Below are positions 547 through 50,166 of a DNA stretch of 64,000 nucleotides, piece after piece. The first letter of the stretch is position 1, and each line of letters begins with the position of its first letter. The position numbers and the translations under genes are program-made. The notes beneath the pieces are model-generated. The model saw only the letters and a list, made by a program, of their open reading frames with translations, was not told the DNA's origin and ran no database searches. Origin of the DNA: Promineifilum sp. (GTDB lineage: Bacteria > Chloroflexota > Anaerolineae > Promineifilales > Promineifilaceae); contig JAGOZU010000004.1 in NCBI GenBank assembly GCA_018058545.1, forward strand, positions 1 through 64,000. The letters run 5' to 3'.

Positions 547-1884
547 CTACGGTGTCAGTCGATTGAGTGTGCGCGGGAAGGGGATGGTCTGGCGGATATG
601 GTCAATACCGCATATCCAGGCCACCGTCCGTTCCAGCCCCAGACCGAAGCCGCTGTGAGGCACGCTGCCGAAGCGGCGCAGTTCGATGTACCATTTGTAG
701 TTTGCCTCGGGCAATTCATGCCGCCGGATGGCCTCGAGAAGCAGGTCAGGGTCGCTCATGCGCTCGGAGCCGCCGATGATCTCGCCGTATCCTTCGGGAG
801 CCAGCAGATCGACGCTCTTGCAGACCTCCGGCCGGCCGGGCCAGGGTTCCATATAGAAGGCTTTGACGGCCGATGGGTAGCCATAGACGAAAACCGGTTT
901 CTCGAACTGCTTGGTCAACTCTGTCTCGTGCGGCGATCCGAAGTCATCCCCCCACTCGATGGCCAGGCTCTCCTTCAGTTCGGGATCGTCGGTCGCCTCG
1001 CGTATCGCGTGCAGGCGTTCGATAGCCTCATCGTAGCTGATGCGGGGGAACGGCGCGGTCACCTTGCGCAGGGCGGTGAGATCGCGCCCCAGCAACTCCA
1101 GCTCGGCGGCGCGCTTCTCCAGCGTGGTCTGCACGATATAGGAGATGAACGCCTCCTCCAAAACCATCAGATCGTCGAGATCGCAATAGGCCAACTCCGG
1201 CTCCACCATCCAGAACTCGGCCAGATGGCGGCGGGTCTTGCTTTTCTCGGCGCGGAAGGTGGGGCCGAAGCAGTAGACCTTGCCGAAGGACATGATGGTG
1301 GCCTCGCTGTAGAGCTGACCGGTTTGCGCCAGGTAGGCCTTCTCATCAAAGTAGCCGACCTCGAACAGGTTGCTCGTGCCCTCGGCCGCGCTAGGGGTCA
1401 GGATCGGAGTGTCGATATTGATGAAGCCGTTGTCGTCAAAGAAGTCGATGATCGCTCGCTTGATCGTGGCCCGAACGCGCATGATGGCCCATTGCTGGTT
1501 TGAGCGTAGCCATAAATGCCGGTTATCCATCAGGAACTCAACGCCATGCTCCTTGGGGGTGATGGGGTAATCGACGGCATTTTGAATGATATGAGCTTCC
1601 TCGATACCGATTTCATAACCGGCAGGGATGCCGGGAGCGCGATCATTGGTGCGAACCGTGCCGGTGACGATGAGCGATGATTCCTGGCCCAGATGGGCCA
1701 GCTGCTCGAACAACTCGTCGCCGATTTCGGGGCGATAGGCCACGGCCTGGGTGATCCCCGTGCCGTCGCGCAGGCGCAGGAAGAGCAGCTTGCCTTTGTG
1801 GGTGCTGGCATAGAGCCAGCCCTTGACGGTGACGCGCTCACCGACATGCTCGGCGATACGTTCAATGGTGAAGGGGGTGGTCAT
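547..1884 (-). CDS. asnS: Asparaginyl-tRNA synthetase
   Basis: AsnRS charges tRNA-Asn with asparagine in the cytoplasm. The 445-residue product has the expected class IIb layout. An N-terminal OB-fold anticodon-binding domain covers about residues 15-105 ([22 protein letters not shown]). The catalytic core follows, with motif 2 ([21 protein letters not shown] region, about 215-240) and motif 3 ([15 protein letters not shown], near residue 415). Asn rather than Asp specificity is inferred from overall resemblance to AsnRS. Length is close to the family norm. AGGAG lies just before the ATG. It probably forms a short transcription unit with pdxT. Confidence 0.96.
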
Positions 1885-2017
1885 TCAACTCTCCTAACAT
1901 TAGGTGGGGCAATTCCATAATAAATTCGATCGATGAGTATATCAGACAGGCGGTCGTTCCTGAAATCCGACCCGTTGTTGTTTCCGCCGCAATCCGCCCC
2001 ATCCGCGGGCCACGCGC

Positions 2018-3268
2018 CTACTTCTGGCTGACGATATATCCCGCCAGCCGGGGCAAAAACGGCTCCAGTTCATAGCTCTCCCAGGCGCGGCCGCCGCTGG
2101 CCGTAAAGAGTGCGTAGCCGATCACGTAAGAGTCCTGACGTGCCTCGTTGTCGACCCATTGCAATTGGTTCAGATATGCAGTCTGCCCGTCAGGCCCCCA
2201 CCCTTGTTCGACCCAGAAATCCTGAAAATCCTGCCAGCCCAGCCCGTCCGGCCCCGGCCGATTGCCGAGGATGCCGTCGATGCCCGCCTCGGAGATGACC
2301 AGCGGCACGACCAGCCCGCGCGGTTCCAGCACGTCGCGATAGAACCAGCGATAGCGAAACATCAACGGCCCCCGGTCAGGATAGGTGGGGTAGCCGGGCA
2401 ATGGATCGCCATAGAGGAAGGTCAGGTCCGGCGCGGCATATTCATGCAGCGTCAGAATGCCGCCGTGGCGCTTGGCCTCCTCGATGGCCGGGACGAACAA
2501 CTCAAACTCATTCAGCTCCGGCACGCCGGTGGAGAAGCCGCCAACGGCCGCGCGCAAGCCGTGGGCTGCCAGTTGTCGCACGCGCTCGGCCTCGAACCGG
2601 GCGTACCAGTCCATCCGATCCATGTTGGGATCCGGTTCGTTCCAGCCTTCCCAATAGTCAACGGCGGGGTGAAGGCGCATTTGCGGCAGTTGCCGGGCCA
2701 CCAGCGCCGCCGCGGCCGCCTCAGGCTCCCCGTTGTAATCCTGCGGATCGATCGAAAAACGGCCGATCGTCACCGTCGACGGCGACACGGCCTTCACCTC
2801 GGCCAGGAAGCCTAGATCATCCACGCCCTTCACCACCGCCGGTTGCGCCGCGCGAACGAATTCGAGGATGGCATCACTGTTGGGCCGAGCCACATGAAGG
2901 CCCATCTTGCTGGGACCGAGTTCGGGGCGCGGCGAATAGTCGGGGATATTGCTGATATAGGGGGTGGCGACGGGAACGGTGGGTGGCGGAGGTGCCGGCT
3001 CGCTGGTTGGTTCCGGTTCGACCGTCGGCGACGGGATGGCAGTGGGCGCATGACCGCCTCCGGGGACGAGAGGCACGAAGACCTCGGCCGTCGCAACCCC
3101 TGTGGCGGCGGCTGGTGTCGGAGGGTTGGCCGTCGCGGCCATCGGCACGCTGGTGGCCGGCACTTCTGTGACGACGATGGGAGTCGACGAGAGCGAGCTA
3201 TCGGGGTTTTGGCCATCGCAGGCCACCATGATCAGCGTTAGCAGGACCGCCAGGATCAGTCTAATCAT
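2018..3268 (-). CDS. Lipid-anchored glycoside-hydrolase-like TIM-barrel protein
   Basis: The 416-residue product starts with a hydrophobic signal ending in IMVAC (Cys17, lipobox), followed by a Thr/Pro/Ala-rich linker to about residue 105 and then a globular domain. That domain contains WEGWNEPDPN (near residue 213) and VISEAGIDG (near residue 332). These resemble the acid/base Glu after strand 4 and the nucleophile Glu after strand 7 of clan A glycosidases (GH5/GH39-like). Substrate is unknown. It should sit on the outer face of the membrane. The next gene upstream encodes a GT39-type glycosyltransferase 72 bp away, so both may act on a surface glycan. The family assignment rests on motifs only. 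Confidence 0.7.
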   Translation of the reverse strand: MIRLILAVLLTLIMVACDGQNPDSSLSSTPIVVTEVPATSVPMAATANPPTPAAATGVATAEVFVPLVPGGGHAPTAIPSPTVEPEPTSEPAPPPPTVPVATPYISNIPDYSPRPELGPSKMGLHVARPNSDAILEFVRAAQPAVVKGVDDLGFLAEVKAVSPSTVTIGRFSIDPQDYNGEPEAAAAALVARQLPQMRLHPAVDYWEGWNEPDPNMDRMDWYARFEAERVRQLAAHGLRAAVGGFSTGVPELNEFELFVPAIEEAKRHGGILTLHEYAAPDLTFLYGDPLPGYPTYPDRGPLMFRYRWFYRDVLEPRGLVVPLVISEAGIDGILGNRPGPDGLGWQDFQDFWVEQGWGPDGQTAYLNQLQWVDNEARQDSYVIGYALFTASGGRAWESYELEPFLPRLAGYIVSQK

Positions 3269-3340
3269 CGGCTCTCAAGCATATCTCATCGTCTACAGCC
3301 GGGCATCTCCCCTCAGCGGCCGCTTATCGGCTTCGCGCGC

Positions 3341-43537: not shown

Positions 43538-43915
43538 ATGAACCATTCACCTCTTTACAAAACAGCCATCATTCTGTTCACGCTCCTTTGCGTACTCACC
43601 GTTGTGACATTCATACCCGCATTACTGGGCGGCCCTGATAACCAGAGCGCGGTCGCCGGTATCCCCCAGGTAATCATCATCTTCGCCACGCTGGTATCTG
43701 TGGTTGGTCTCGTTGCCGCCTATGGCGCCTGGCAGGGGCAGAAATGGGGCAAATGGCTGGTGATTATCCTCTCGGCCGTCAACGGGTTGAGCGCGTTGCC
43801 CGGCGTCACGGCCGCGCCGAGCGATTTTGCGCGTATTTCAGCCATCGTCACCGTTTTGGTTTCCGTTTTCGTCATCGTCGTTCTGTTGCTCCGACCGAAG
43901 ATGATCGCATCATAA
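43538..43915 (+). CDS. Small four-helix membrane protein, copy 1
   Basis: The 125-residue product begins MNHSPLYKTAIILFTLLCVLTVV and has four predicted helices. A conserved loop AAYGAWQGQKWGKWLVIILS lies near the middle, and the tail is short and basic. It is a clear paralogue of the protein encoded at 44014-44400, from the first residues on. Function is unknown. The two copies are separated by a palindromic repeat. Confidence 0.8.
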   Translation: MNHSPLYKTAIILFTLLCVLTVVTFIPALLGGPDNQSAVAGIPQVIIIFATLVSVVGLVAAYGAWQGQKWGKWLVIILSAVNGLSALPGVTAAPSDFARISAIVTVLVSVFVIVVLLLRPKMIAS

Positions 43916-43985: not shown

Positions 43986-44013
43986 CAGGTTGATTTCCTA
44001 CAGGAATTACATC

Positions 44014-44400
44014 ATGAACCATTCACCCCTCTACAAAACAGCCGTCATCCTGTTTACTCTCCAATCGCTCTTCAACGTCGTGGCAACCATTCCCCCGCTG
44101 TTGGATGGCCCGGAAAATCAGGGCTATGCCGCCGGCGTTCCTCAAGCCGTCATCCTCCTGGCCGCCGTGGGCGGTGTGGCCGGCCTCTTCGCCGCCTATG
44201 GCGCGTGGAAAGGAAAAAGATGGGGTATCTGGCTGACGATCCTCCTTAGCGTTGTTGGCGCTTTGAGCGCCGCGCCCGGTGTCCTGTTCGCGCCCAATAA
44301 TTCTCTGCGGGCATCGGCCATCATCGGCATTGTCGTGTCGATCTTCGTCATCGTCGCCCTGTTGCGCCAGCCGAAGACAGCGGCAACTTCAGGTAAATGA
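44014..44400 (+). CDS. Small four-helix membrane protein, copy 2
   Basis: The 128-residue product begins MNHSPLYKTAVILFTLQSLFNVV and contains AAYGAWKGKRWGIWLTILLS, matching copy 1 throughout. The ATG at 44014 follows AGGAATTACATC. A longer in-frame start at 43990 would remove the similarity to the start of copy 1. Function is unknown. It is followed by the two-component genes. Confidence 0.8.
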   Translation: MNHSPLYKTAVILFTLQSLFNVVATIPPLLDGPENQGYAAGVPQAVILLAAVGGVAGLFAAYGAWKGKRWGIWLTILLSVVGALSAAPGVLFAPNNSLRASAIIGIVVSIFVIVALLRQPKTAATSGK

Positions 44401-45785: not shown

Positions 45786-46442
45786 ATGGACCCGATACGC
45801 ATTCTCATCTGTGACGACCACGACGCCTTCCGGCAAGGGCTGCGGACTATGCTGGCCATTGATGCCTCGCTGAGCGTGGTCGCCGAGGCGGCCGACGGCG
45901 CGGCGGCGGTGGCCCAGGCGGCCGAATTGCAGCCCGACGTCATCCTGATGGATTTGCAGATGCCGCGGCTGAACGGGCTGGAGGCGACCCGCCGCATCAT
46001 GACCGCCAGCCCCCATATACGCATCCTCGTGCTGACCATGTCCGACGACACGGCCACCGTCTTCCACGCCCTGCAGGCCGGGGCGCGGGGCTATATCCTG
46101 AAAGGGGCGCGCAAGGCCGACATCGTGCGCTCCATCCAGAACGTGTTCAACGATGAGGTCGTCTTCGGCGCGGCCGTGGCCCAGCACGTCATCCACCACT
46201 TCACCCGCGTCCAGGCCGACGTGCGAGCCGAGGCGTTCCCGCAACTCAGCGAGCGCGAGTCGGAGATCCTCAATCTGATGGCCCAGGAGCTGCCCAATGA
46301 GGCTATTGCCGAGCGGCTGGGCATCAGTCTCAAGACGGTGCGCAACCACGTCGCCAACATCTGCACCAAGTTGCAGGTGAGTGACCGGACTGCGGCCGTG
46401 TTGCGAGCACAGACGCAGTCCAATCCGCCCAGGACCAACTAA
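45786..46442 (+). CDS. NarL/LuxR-family response regulator
   Basis: The 218-residue protein has a receiver domain with acidic DD (10-11), phospho-acceptor Asp56 (VILMDLQMPRLNG) and Lys in YILKGARKAD. The C-terminal LuxR HTH is LSERESEILNLMAQELPNEAIAERLGISLKTVRNHV. It is the partner of the kinase just upstream. Its stop codon overlaps the convergent herA stop by four bases. Confidence 0.95.
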   Translation: MDPIRILICDDHDAFRQGLRTMLAIDASLSVVAEAADGAAAVAQAAELQPDVILMDLQMPRLNGLEATRRIMTASPHIRILVLTMSDDTATVFHALQAGARGYILKGARKADIVRSIQNVFNDEVVFGAAVAQHVIHHFTRVQADVRAEAFPQLSERESEILNLMAQELPNEAIAERLGISLKTVRNHVANICTKLQVSDRTAAVLRAQTQSNPPRTN

Positions 46443-48169
46443 AACAGGTCGCGGTTCAAATCATCCGCCGTATACGGCTCATCCCTCTTCGTCGAAGGGC
46501 CGGAACGCCCGCGCATCTCGCCATAGAACTTCTCGTCATAGCGCCGCGAGCGGACGGGGATGGGCATCTTGACACCCCAGCCCAGCAGCAGCACTTCCTC
46601 TTTTTCCTGCAGGCGGGCCAGCATGCCGCGCAACTGGTCGCGCCCGGCCAACCCGCTCAGCACGGCGCGGATGTCGTCCTCGTCGCCCAGCCAGCCGGTG
46701 ACGCGCGTGCCCAACTGCGACATCACCTCGTCGTCGATGCCCGACGGCCGCTGGTCGACGATGAGCAGGGTCACGTTGTACTTGCGCAGTTCGCGGGCGA
46801 TGGTGCCGAAGGCGGTCTGCCCGGCGACTTGCGGGTTGAGCAACTTGTGCGCCTCCTCGATGACGATAACCATCGGTCGTGGCGGCGCGCCACCGAGAGA
46901 TTTACTGCTTTCCATCTTCCTGACCCACTCCTGGCGGATACGTCGCGTCAGAATATTGGAGACGACGATATAGTCCAGTTCGTTGTCGTGCTCGCCGAAA
47001 CTCAGGATGATGTGCTTGCCGTTTTCCAGAAAGTCGGCGATGGCCGCCACGGCGTCGGCCGCCGGCTGCTCCACCACATAGGACTTGTGGAAAATGGGCT
47101 GCAACTTGCGGTGCAGCGACTCGGCCGCCGCGGGATGGATGTTGTGGCTGGTGGCCCAACCAGCGACGGAGTCGGGGGCGGGAATCCGCTTGCCGTTATC
47201 ATCTTCGACGGTCGCGCCCGGCCGCAGCTTCATAAACTCGGCAAACCAGCTCTCTCGATGGGCGCGTTCCAGCGCGCTCAGGACGACGGCCGCCGTGTCG
47301 TTGAGATCGAGCGTCTCGGACAGCAGCAAAATATCGGCCGTCCCGAAATCGCTCAGCGCCAGTTCCAGCGTAAAGTCGGGCGAGTTCTCGCGCACCCGCG
47401 CCCCTTTGCCCAGCGCGGCGATCTGCATCTTCTGGCCGAACATCGACTTCAGGCCATGCACGGTCTTGTCGCGGTCGCTGTCCCGATCGTCATAGCCATA
47501 CTCATTGTGCATATCAAACACCAGCGCCGAGGCTACATCGGTCTTCATCAAACCTGCCAACACCATGCGCGTCAGGAAGCTCTTGCCCGTGCCCGTCGCG
47601 CCAAAGATGCCGCTGCTGCGCTTGACGAATCGCGCCAGGTCGAGACAGACCGGATAGCCTTGCTCGATGGTGTGGCCGATGACGAAGTTGTCCCCGCCCT
47701 CCTCGCCGAAGATGGCGGCTACGTCGGCCGCGTCGGCCGGGCGCACCGGCGCGTGATGGGCGGGCACGGTCTTCACCGGCTTGGGTCCCGGATTCTCCTC
47801 GCCCCGGTCAACGCGCGCCTGCCACTCCTCCCGCTCCGGCGACGTCAGCTCCGGCCCCCTGTCCATGAGCAACGTGGAGTACATCTCCAGCGTCGTGTAG
47901 AGCGTCTTGCCGTAGAGCGCTCCCCGGATCGCCTCCGGCAACCGGTCGGATTTCTCGTCGGCAAAGCGCGGATCGGTGGAGCCAAGTTGCAGGTCGGTGA
48001 CCAGCCCATAGTAACGATAGCGGGAGGTATCGCATACGACGAAGCTGCCTTCCTGCACGCTGTCGGCCGGGACGGTGAGGCGGACGCGCAGGCCGCTCTT
48101 TAGCCCCCCGCCGACAATATAACCCAGCGGTGCGGCCGGCCCCGCGGAATCTTTTGGATTGTCAAACAT
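46439..48169 (-). CDS. herA: HerA-family DNA translocase ATPase
   Basis: The 576-residue protein has an N-terminal beta-barrel-like region (about 15-65) and then the HerA/FtsK-like ATPase. Walker A is GIFGATGTGKSFLTR (187-201), Walker B is VIVIEEAHKLL (434-444), and VDQRPSGIDDEVMSQLGTR (from 471) is the sensor/arginine-finger region of hexameric HerA. HerA pumps DNA and works with the nuclease NurA in end processing. The ATG overlaps the stop of the upstream HAS-barrel-like gene by one base (TGATG), so translation is coupled. nurA lies further upstream in the same direction. Confidence 0.9.
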   Translation of the reverse strand: MFDNPKDSAGPAAPLGYIVGGGLKSGLRVRLTVPADSVQEGSFVVCDTSRYRYYGLVTDLQLGSTDPRFADEKSDRLPEAIRGALYGKTLYTTLEMYSTLLMDRGPELTSPEREEWQARVDRGEENPGPKPVKTVPAHHAPVRPADAADVAAIFGEEGGDNFVIGHTIEQGYPVCLDLARFVKRSSGIFGATGTGKSFLTRMVLAGLMKTDVASALVFDMHNEYGYDDRDSDRDKTVHGLKSMFGQKMQIAALGKGARVRENSPDFTLELALSDFGTADILLLSETLDLNDTAAVVLSALERAHRESWFAEFMKLRPGATVEDDNGKRIPAPDSVAGWATSHNIHPAAAESLHRKLQPIFHKSYVVEQPAADAVAAIADFLENGKHIILSFGEHDNELDYIVVSNILTRRIRQEWVRKMESSKSLGGAPPRPMVIVIEEAHKLLNPQVAGQTAFGTIARELRKYNVTLLIVDQRPSGIDDEVMSQLGTRVTGWLGDEDDIRAVLSGLAGRDQLRGMLARLQEKEEVLLLGWGVKMPIPVRSRRYDEKFYGEMRGRSGPSTKRDEPYTADDLNRDLF

Positions 48170-48828
48170 CAGAATCCTCCCACCATTGACGGCACGCCAC
48201 CCAAACCGGGCAATGCCTCGCCCAGCGCCTCCAGTGTCGGCACCAGTGTGTCGTAGTCACTGCGCAGCAGTTCGATGACCTCGTTGATGACCGTCATCGC
48301 CCAGTCCGCGTCATGGCCGCGCAGGCGGTAAACATCCTGCACGTGGGCCACGAGCAGCTGGTCGACCGGCACGCCCATATCGGCCGCGCGCAGGATGAGC
48401 CGCAAATAGCCGAGCCGGTCGGTGAAGCGGGTCAACTCGGCCGCATCGTGGCAAAGGTGAACCGGGTCCAGGTTGAGCGGCGGGCGCGGCGGCAAGCCGT
48501 GGTAGAAGCGCCCGTTGAGACAATAGCCGACGGCCAAAACGCTCATCTCGATCGGCAGCAAGCGGTTCCGGCGCTGATCGCTGATGACCTCCTCGCGTGG
48601 GCTTTCGGCCAGGATGAGCCGTCGCACCAGGGGATCGTCAGCCACGTCCATGTTATAGATGAGGCCAAAGATCGCCTCGCGCTCGTCCACCGGTTGAGCC
48701 TTCACCAGACAGCCGAACGACGGCCCCGCCAGGTGCTGCACCTGACAGCCGATGACAAAACCGGTCGTACCGGCTCGCAAGACACGGCCGATCGGCGACG
48801 CTGTTTCCCATTCATTACCTGATTCCAA
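48169..48828 (-). CDS. HAS-barrel-like protein between nurA and herA
   Basis: In this 219-residue protein the first 60 residues (GRVLRAGTTGFVIGCQVQ, then PSFGCLVKA and FGLIYNMDV) resemble the HAS beta-barrel seen at the N-termini of HerA-type ATPases and their partners. The rest is mainly helical and acidic, with no recognisable catalytic motif. It is translationally coupled to herA and 78 bp downstream of nurA. I infer a structural or loading subunit of a HerA-NurA machine. This is not proven. Confidence 0.65.
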   Translation of the reverse strand: MESGNEWETASPIGRVLRAGTTGFVIGCQVQHLAGPSFGCLVKAQPVDEREAIFGLIYNMDVADDPLVRRLILAESPREEVISDQRRNRLLPIEMSVLAVGYCLNGRFYHGLPPRPPLNLDPVHLCHDAAELTRFTDRLGYLRLILRAADMGVPVDQLLVAHVQDVYRLRGHDADWAMTVINEVIELLRSDYDTLVPTLEALGEALPGLGGVPSMVGGF

Positions 48829-48846
48829 TGTAATCCTCCCTAACTT

Positions 48847-48905
48847 GTAGCACAGACATCCCTGCCTGTGTCGCCCCTGCGCTCAGTCAGAAATGACTGA
48901 GCTAC
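48847..48905. repeat. 59-bp element with terminal inverted repeats and two hairpins
   Basis: Ends GTAGCACAG (48847-48855) and CTGAGCTAC (48897-48905) are inverted repeats with one mismatch. Inside are a hairpin CACAGACA/TGCCTGTG (one mismatch) and a perfect 9-bp hairpin 48881-48889/48894-48902 with a GAAA loop. It fills the gap between nurA and the HAS-barrel gene. Confidence 0.7.
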
Positions 48906-48906
48906 A

Positions 48907-50166
48907 TCATCTCAAGCTGTGAACCCTGCGGCCTCCGCGAGCGAAATCCTTGCCACTCTGCTTGCTCGTCTGGCTGCCGCTGACGCCCGTCCGTTGCATG
49001 GCCAGATCGATCATGACGCCGAGGTTGGCCTCGTCATCATGGCCGACCACGGCCAGCTCATCCGCCCGCGTCAGCACGTAGGGGTAGTTGAGCTGGATGC
49101 GACACTGGTCATAGATCAGGCCGTGAACGGTAGCCACGGCCGCCTTGTCCTCGGCCACCCAGCGCGGGATGTCGATCCGGGCGATGGCTCGCGCCTCGCC
49201 CAATGAGTCAGGGTCGTCATCGGGAACGCTGTTGCTGGACCCGGCATTGAGATAGAAAAAGCAGATCTCGATGTCGGACGATTCCTCGGCGAAGCGCGTG
49301 TTGGCCGGAGAGATATCGACAAACACCGGGCTGCGTTCGCCGGGACCGAGCAACCGGGCATAGAGACCGGCATCGGTGAGTTCGTTGCCCGCCGGTCGCC
49401 TGCCCAGGGCGCGCCAGTCCATGTCCGCCTCATCGAGCAGGGTCTGGAGCATGGTCACCACCGAGCGCTTGCCCGGCCGGTCGATATACCCGGCCAGCAG
49501 CGCCCCCGTCTCGTAAATCCGGCGCATCTCCTGCATCCAATGGGCTACGACCGGATCGGCGCTGCCCCGCTCGCCGACCATCGGCCAGTACAGCAGTCGC
49601 TGGTCGAGCAAAGCCAGCACGTGGCCGGAAGCGCCGCGCCAGGCATCGGCAAAATCGGCCAGCGTTTCGATCTCGGCGCGATCGCGGGCGATAGCCACCT
49701 GGCTCACGTCGAAGCCCGGCTCGTCCTCGGTCACGTCGCCCTCGGGTTCGGGATAGAACAACCGCGGCGAGGTGTGGATGTCCGGCGCGCGGCCGTCGCC
49801 AAAGCCGTGGTGATAGACGATGACGCCGATGTTGATCAGATAGTAGAGGTAAGCCGCGTGCCGGTCGGGCATGATCTGTGAGCCATCGGTGGCGATGATC
49901 GTCGCCGGCTTGGGCGGCGCGGGGGGCGGGATGGGTGTATCCAGTGGCTCGTCTTCCGACAAGGGCGCGGCGGCACGAAAAAACTTCCGGTCGGCTTTCT
50001 CTTCGGCCAGGCGTAATCCGGCGCGGATGCCGTCCCAATCGGTGGCATGCTCGGCCAGCAATTGCCGCAACTGATCGGCGCGCCGTAATTGGACCACGCG
50101 GTTGGCGGCCGCGGCCAGGGCCATCTGTTCGAGGTCGGAGGTCAGCTTGTCAAACTCCAGCGTCAT
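48907..50166 (-). CDS. nurA: NurA-domain nuclease
   Basis: This 419-residue protein has a helical N-terminus, then TIIATDGSQIMPDRH with the invariant Asp94 of NurA (DGS motif). SPVFVDISPANTRFAEE and a C-terminal HGLIYDQCRIQLNYPYVLTRADELAV also fit the NurA fold (RNase H-like). NurA is a 5'-3' exo/endonuclease that works with HerA in resecting DNA ends. The ATG at 50166 is chosen over a GTG six codons earlier. Neither has a strong ribosome-binding site. It is divergent from dnaX. Confidence 0.83.
   Translation of the reverse strand: MTLEFDKLTSDLEQMALAAAANRVVQLRRADQLRQLLAEHATDWDGIRAGLRLAEEKADRKFFRAAAPLSEDEPLDTPIPPPAPPKPATIIATDGSQIMPDRHAAYLYYLINIGVIVYHHGFGDGRAPDIHTSPRLFYPEPEGDVTEDEPGFDVSQVAIARDRAEIETLADFADAWRGASGHVLALLDQRLLYWPMVGERGSADPVVAHWMQEMRRIYETGALLAGYIDRPGKRSVVTMLQTLLDEADMDWRALGRRPAGNELTDAGLYARLLGPGERSPVFVDISPANTRFAEESSDIEICFFYLNAGSSNSVPDDDPDSLGEARAIARIDIPRWVAEDKAAVATVHGLIYDQCRIQLNYPYVLTRADELAVVGHDDEANLGVMIDLAMQRTGVSGSQTSKQSGKDFARGGRRVHSLR

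Follow-up and report, generated by a model that had tools for sequence, protein, structure and literature searches.

A probable overlooked component of the NurA-HerA machine: a small unnamed gene between nurA and herA in Promineifilum sp. (Chloroflexota)

The HAS-barrel, the fold on which this work centres, was reportedly named by Iyer et al. in 2004.

In the solved HerA-NurA complexes, a NurA dimer is seated on a ring of six HerA HAS-barrels (PMC9960219, PMC12977600). Specifically, NurA is contacted in Thermococcus through the first HAS helix and the loop preceding it (PMC12977600), and in Deinococcus through three acidic HAS-barrel residues (PMC9960219), both complexes being composed of six HerA and two NurA with no third subunit (PMC9960219, PMC12977600). 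As for the function in the cell, deletions in Deinococcus and Thermus are accompanied by modest or improved resistance to DNA damage (PMC9960219). In the papers searched, no third NurA-HerA subunit is described; Iyer et al. 2004 may mention stand-alone HAS-barrels.

The window analysed here is a stretch of 64,000 nucleotides of Promineifilum sp. (contig JAGOZU010000004.1). Its locus resembles the Deinococcus radiodurans system (PMC9960219; PDB 7wrw, 7wrx, 7f6d), in which a bacterial NurA is likewise combined with a HAS-barrel HerA and docked on the HAS-barrels; in that assembly of six HerA and two NurA a third subunit is undescribed, whereas the window adds a HAS gene. The archaeal HerA-NurA systems with Mre11-Rad50 (Sulfolobus, Thermococcus) use the same enzyme pair, and their linkage to mre11-rad50 is shared by a divergent set of relatives of the window locus, designated type II below. 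The complexes reported from these archaea contain HerA and NurA only; in the window, instead, nurA and herA flank an independent HAS-barrel gene. The features of the locus are the following:

48907..50166, minus strand: nurA, putative nuclease subunit, 419 aa (Pfam NurA PF09376, E 1.8e-16)
48835..48839, minus strand: GGAGG ribosome-binding site of the HAS gene (from the sequence)
48169..48828, minus strand: gene of the stand-alone HAS-barrel protein, candidate third subunit, 219 aa, TTG start
48454..48795, minus strand: HAS-barrel part of the 219-aa protein, residues 12-125 (AlphaFold model and matches to HerA N-terminal regions)
48562..48642, minus strand: loop and helices past the central barrel strand, residues 63-89 of the 219-aa protein
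48214..48453, minus strand: predicted five-helix C-terminal part of the 219-aa protein, residues 126-205
48167..48171, minus strand: TGATG stop-start overlap of the HAS gene and herA (from the sequence)
46439..48169, minus strand: herA, DNA-translocase subunit, 576 aa, with its own HAS-barrel (Pfam PF01935, PF05872, PF09378)

The three genes run in one direction on the minus strand, as a preliminary description of this DNA had reported, and they turn out to be part of a larger pattern than was seen at first; the coupling of the last two by a TGATG overlap, pointed out in the same description, is real (48171-48167). The TTG start of the HAS gene lies 6 nt past GGAGG. The 576-aa protein is a HerA by its motor domains (DUF87/HerA PF01935, E 4.5e-25; HerA_C, E 1.2e-5; PF01935 and PF05872 above the cut-off), retains Walker A (GATGTGKS) and Walker B (VIVIEEAH) and was aligned with Sulfolobus HerA 4d2i, while its own HAS-barrel (PF09378) scores E 4e-4, under the Pfam cut-off. 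The 419-aa protein is a NurA by its PF09376 domain and its conserved acidic residues, which together point to a nuclease role. Across 39 aligned sequences, D94, E165, D188, Y305 and E370 show little or no variation, and the DGS motif containing D94 is kept. When compared with the PADLOC models, HerA matches the HerA models, NurA matches none and the HAS protein gives only a chance-level match to AbiEii. On the opposite strand dnaX-ybaB-recR is present, as previously noted. The DNA-end-processing neighbourhood that had been read into this arrangement did not hold up, and recR/dnaX were ruled out as a conserved association, since the neighbourhood is conserved within the genus only.

The small middle protein has no match in Pfam and NCBIfam searches, and the window protein scores no match to Pfam HAS-barrel PF09378, whose curated cut-off is 25.2 bits. 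Weak matches to this model are obtained for 23 of 48 relatives (best E 0.0011), and together with the predicted fold they bear out the earlier call of a HAS-barrel-like protein. Specifically, an AlphaFold model built on the alignment of 48 relatives (mean pLDDT 90.5) places barrel strands at residues 14 to 125, followed by five short helices at 129-205. The top PDB matches of this model in Foldseek are HerA proteins (E 1.5e-5), and a second aligner returns Z of 12-15 (maximum 14.9) to HerA N-terminal HAS-barrels, with 12.3 for Deinococcus 7wrx and 12.1 for Thermococcus 9x1m, as against about 10 for ATP-synthase barrels. Set against its own HerA by profile comparison (hhalign), the window-type family gives a weak match (P 0.0096, residues 10-64 only), so that the identity of the domain is settled by fold comparison. 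According to the model, then, the 219-aa protein is a HAS-barrel by fold and not a member of PF09378, from which it also differs in being a stand-alone protein with a helical tail of its own and no ATPase. Residues 10-171 align over 127 residues with the N-terminal region of the HerA-like TdpA of the TdpAB system (PDB 8wfd, 8wet); TdpA chains, however, count 560-584 residues, compared with 219 in the ATPase-less window protein. Pfam detects no P-loop ATPase in the latter, which places it outside the HerA motor family, and the C-terminal helices searched alone give no confident fold (the top Z, 7.7, is to a designed protein, and Foldseek E values exceed 1). In other words, as modelled, the protein looks like the docking end of HerA minus the motor, plus a helical tail. 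Residues 63-89 may be the counterpart of the NurA-docking element of HerA, an equivalence based on sequence order and the hhalign alignment, with the HerA element taken from PMC12977600 and PMC9960219. This segment is not conserved above the rest (identity 0.345, against 0.376 for the whole 219-aa protein); its sole fully invariant position, R69, is one of four invariant residues in 39 sequences.

The window-type HAS gene occurs in 100 of 150 genomes of the class and in 99 of 251 of the phylum Chloroflexota, including 32 of 35 genomes of the window's own family. The matching HerA subfamily, found in 102 of the 251, accompanies the HAS gene in 98 of its 99 carriers (Fisher 1e-63; this value and the others computed in the analysis, 4e-25 and 6e-50, ignore shared ancestry and are descriptive only). 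NurA, detected by Pfam in 160 of 251 genomes, is likewise present in 98 of the 99 carriers. Homologues lying mostly away from herA and nurA had been named in advance as the result that would speak against a three-part machine; in fact, the HAS gene lies within 3.5 kb of nurA in 82 of the 96 genomes where both could be placed and adjoins herA in 62 of 98. Among the 95 genomes with all three genes placed, 52 have the trio together, 29 link HAS with nurA only, 9 link HAS with herA only and 5 show no linkage; nurA beside herA without the HAS gene was seen in 0 of 95, a zero that is in part a consequence of gene order. In 43 of the 95, one partner or more is located elsewhere even though all three are present, and their co-occurrence is therefore more than linkage. 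Moreover, the order nurA-X-herA, where X is the HAS gene, recurs across Chloroflexota, as the suggested check of neighbourhood conservation brought out, which argues that the trio is not a chance arrangement. Co-occurrence and linkage across the phylum thus lend support to the idea, already put forward, of a third subunit. Two genomes, G019 and G171, keep herA and lack both NurA and the HAS gene; AddB (PF21445), considered as another possible resectase and detected in 24 of 251 genomes, is present in both (n=2) and absent from G000. Solo second copies of the HAS gene lie off the operon at two loci (L088, L094) in isolates whose operons hold a copy too (L070 and L065), and unlinked copies have ordinary gene neighbours. 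A scan of the contigs of the whole collection with two window-type motif patterns returned 58 relatives, all in records titled Chloroflexi/Chloroflexota or subgroups; these patterns would miss type II, so the 58 do not bound the family.

The type II form emerged from nurA loci taken from sixteen genomes seemingly without a HAS gene. At eight of these sixteen loci a protein of about 195-200 aa, which the window-type profile sees weakly or not at all, adjoins nurA, and herA then follows in seven. Compared by hhalign, the type II and window-type families match with probability 97 and E 3.9e-11. The type II gene is present in 50 of 251 genomes, in a distribution almost complementary to that of the window type (one overlap, G189), and is at most 3.5 kb from nurA in 21 of 45. 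Taken together, one or the other HAS type occurs in 148 of the 251 genomes, 146 of which have NurA (Fisher 6e-50, again a descriptive value), and in 145 of the 153 genomes with convincing NurA. With both profiles applied to the 251 genomes, eight have a convincing NurA match and no HAS gene found; some of them may carry still more divergent HAS forms.

Linkage to mre11 and rad50 characterizes most of the type II loci read and a minority of the window-type loci. In six Chloroflexota type II loci (L172, L173, L175, L178, L180, L181), read by sequence comparison and, for the L172 proteins, by Pfam, the order is mre11-rad50-nurA-X-herA. As for the window type, homologues of mre11 and/or rad50 occur within the stretch read at 15 of the loci L061-L158, four of which have both; in L084 the order is nurA-X-herA-mre11-rad50, and Pfam identifies a Rad50 with zinc hook adjoining herA in L099 and L100 and a metallophosphoesterase in L064 and L126. 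At the window locus itself, Mre11-Rad50 genes do not share the operon of herA and nurA: the sbcD and sbcC homologues of this genome lie together on contig C117, away from the trio.

Relatives of the type II protein are also found in plasmid records, where they are confined to haloarchaea: megaplasmids of Halobaculum marinum, Natrinema zhouii and Halorussus salilacus, to which a search with the Halobaculum protein adds halophilic archaeon DL31. In Halobaculum, Natrinema and DL31 the gene order is metallophosphoesterase, SMC ATPase, NurA, 'hypothetical protein', DUF87/ATP-binding protein, while the Halorussus match lies at the record edge and only its herA side is visible. A DEAD/DEAH helicase gene is found upstream in Natrinema and DL31; in the latter it lies directly upstream of the operon and matches Shango SngC (E 9e-270). 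The window type has no relative in the plasmid records, neither type has one in the viral contigs scanned, and phage records searched with the archaeal homologue gave no match.

On this evidence, we consider it rather likely that a NurA-HerA end-resection machine includes the 219-aa protein as a third subunit without catalytic activity, which would most likely act as an adaptor linking NurA to HerA. The separate HAS-barrel would bind NurA by the same loop-and-helix face that HerA uses and would tie it to the HerA ring in a physical NurA-HAS-HerA complex; HerA would pump duplex DNA, to be fed to NurA for end resection in Promineifilum sp., and in the related operons Mre11-Rad50 would act on the same break. 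In addition, the HAS-barrel diverges in step with NurA when the HerA motor is corrected for (0.60, 95% 0.51-0.70), and the divergence of the helical tail tracks the HerA motor after correction for NurA (partial 0.69). In the window's own cluster the HAS-barrel of HerA tracks NurA as well (0.58), and the correlations, which fit a bridge, are weak and differ between subgroups. The extra HAS-barrel would in principle be dispensable for docking, because HerA keeps a HAS-barrel of its own. The more general proposal, for which the chances appear about even, is that the NurA-HerA of Chloroflexota and of haloarchaeal megaplasmids is a machine of three subunits, or of five once Mre11-Rad50 is counted, and that its HerA-like protein without a motor is an obligate adaptor whose HAS-barrel joins the NurA dimer, two-fold in symmetry, to the six-fold ring of HerA.

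The adaptor is favoured over two other ways of placing a HAS-barrel in this machine. A rather unlikely one is that the protein acts on the assembly of HerA and not on NurA, inserting among the HerA HAS-barrels to open or resize the ring for loading on DNA ends. Its resemblance to the N-terminal part of HerA without the motor would suit such a loader, as would the interconversion of archaeal HerA between heptamer and hexamer, the heptamer having been proposed as the loading form (PMC5715905), the nine genomes in which the HAS gene is linked to herA only and the covariation of the C-terminal part with the HerA motor; linkage to nurA is nevertheless the commoner of the two (82/96 against 62/98), and G019 and G171 have a herA but neither NurA nor the HAS gene. 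It is distinctly unlikely, in turn, that the protein mimics the docking face of HerA in order to occupy NurA and keep the nuclease off until a HerA ring bound to a DNA end displaces it. The fold is the same as that of the NurA-docking domain, and the gene lies just downstream of nurA, often without herA nearby (29 genomes), as such a cap would have it; against this, translational coupling to herA in the window and co-occurrence with HerA in 98 of 99 genomes suggest joint work with HerA, and two-subunit systems work capless.

Whether the locus serves repair or defence had been left undecided in the preliminary description. That the trio destroys foreign DNA, as HerA-Sir2 or HerA-DUF4297 do, is an improbable reading, even if HerA-nuclease pairs act so elsewhere (PMC12977600) and the SngC-like gene adjoins the DL31 operon: no such gene was found near the Chloroflexota loci read, and at one of them, L178, two products adjoining herA resemble, when read by eye, RuvC and RuvA. 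Repair is favoured for the chromosomal Chloroflexota form, since it is chromosomal, near-universal in the window's family, linked to mre11-rad50 and devoid of viral-contig relatives (and, for the window type, of plasmid ones), with ordinary genes around its unlinked copies. For this form the defence reading lacks support; the haloarchaeal plasmid version, by contrast, may serve in defence. Finally, the gene might simply be co-transcribed with nurA and herA and have an unrelated job, as the solo copies off the operon could indicate, but this is highly improbable: the co-occurrence holds even with herA or nurA elsewhere in the genome, and the protein is predicted to fold like the docking domain of HerA.

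The small unnamed gene thus probably encodes a component of the NurA-HerA machine that has been overlooked, and it touches two questions, namely how a nuclease dimer with two-fold symmetry is joined to a DNA pump with six-fold symmetry, and what purpose NurA-HerA serves in bacteria. For lineages carrying the HAS gene, reconstitution from two proteins may be incomplete. A conserved and unannotated subunit that would correspond to the docking domain alone offers a direct handle on both questions.

The intergenic gap between nurA and the gene of the stand-alone HAS-barrel protein (HAS gene) harbors an inverted repeat:

48829-48906, nurA-HAS gene spacer

In particular, a perfect 9-bp inverted repeat, GCTCAGTCA/TGACTGAGC, maps at 48881-48902 and is enclosed by a 23-nt imperfect pair, with no further copies of the repeat being found elsewhere in the genome by similarity search. 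In another part of the window, two adjacent and mutually similar ORFs (MNHSPLYKTA...) are observed:

43538-43915 and 43990-44400, adjacent ORF pair

Apparently, the gene of a small membrane-like protein has been duplicated in tandem here.

As far as the haloarchaeal operons are concerned, mre11-rad50-nurA-X-herA (X being the type II homologue of the HAS gene) on the DL31 megaplasmid is immediately preceded by a helicase gene matching SngC of the Shango defence system:

L199 (DL31 megaplasmid), 1092-3338, SngC-matching helicase gene (E 9e-270)

The corresponding upstream position in Natrinema zhouii is occupied by a helicase annotated as DEAD/DEAH. At the end of one haloarchaeal herA (L198, 2710-2871), a 162-base stretch is entered in PLSDB as a predicted DES-1 beta-lactamase, which is probably a spurious call.

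At loci L088 and L094, the HAS gene is present as a second copy that stands alone, away from nurA and herA, and the isolates carrying these copies also yielded operon copies (L070 and L065). Finally, window-type herA is retained without NurA and without the HAS gene in two genomes, G019 and G171 (loci L168 and L169), and a match to AddB, the component sought as an alternative resectase, is present in both.
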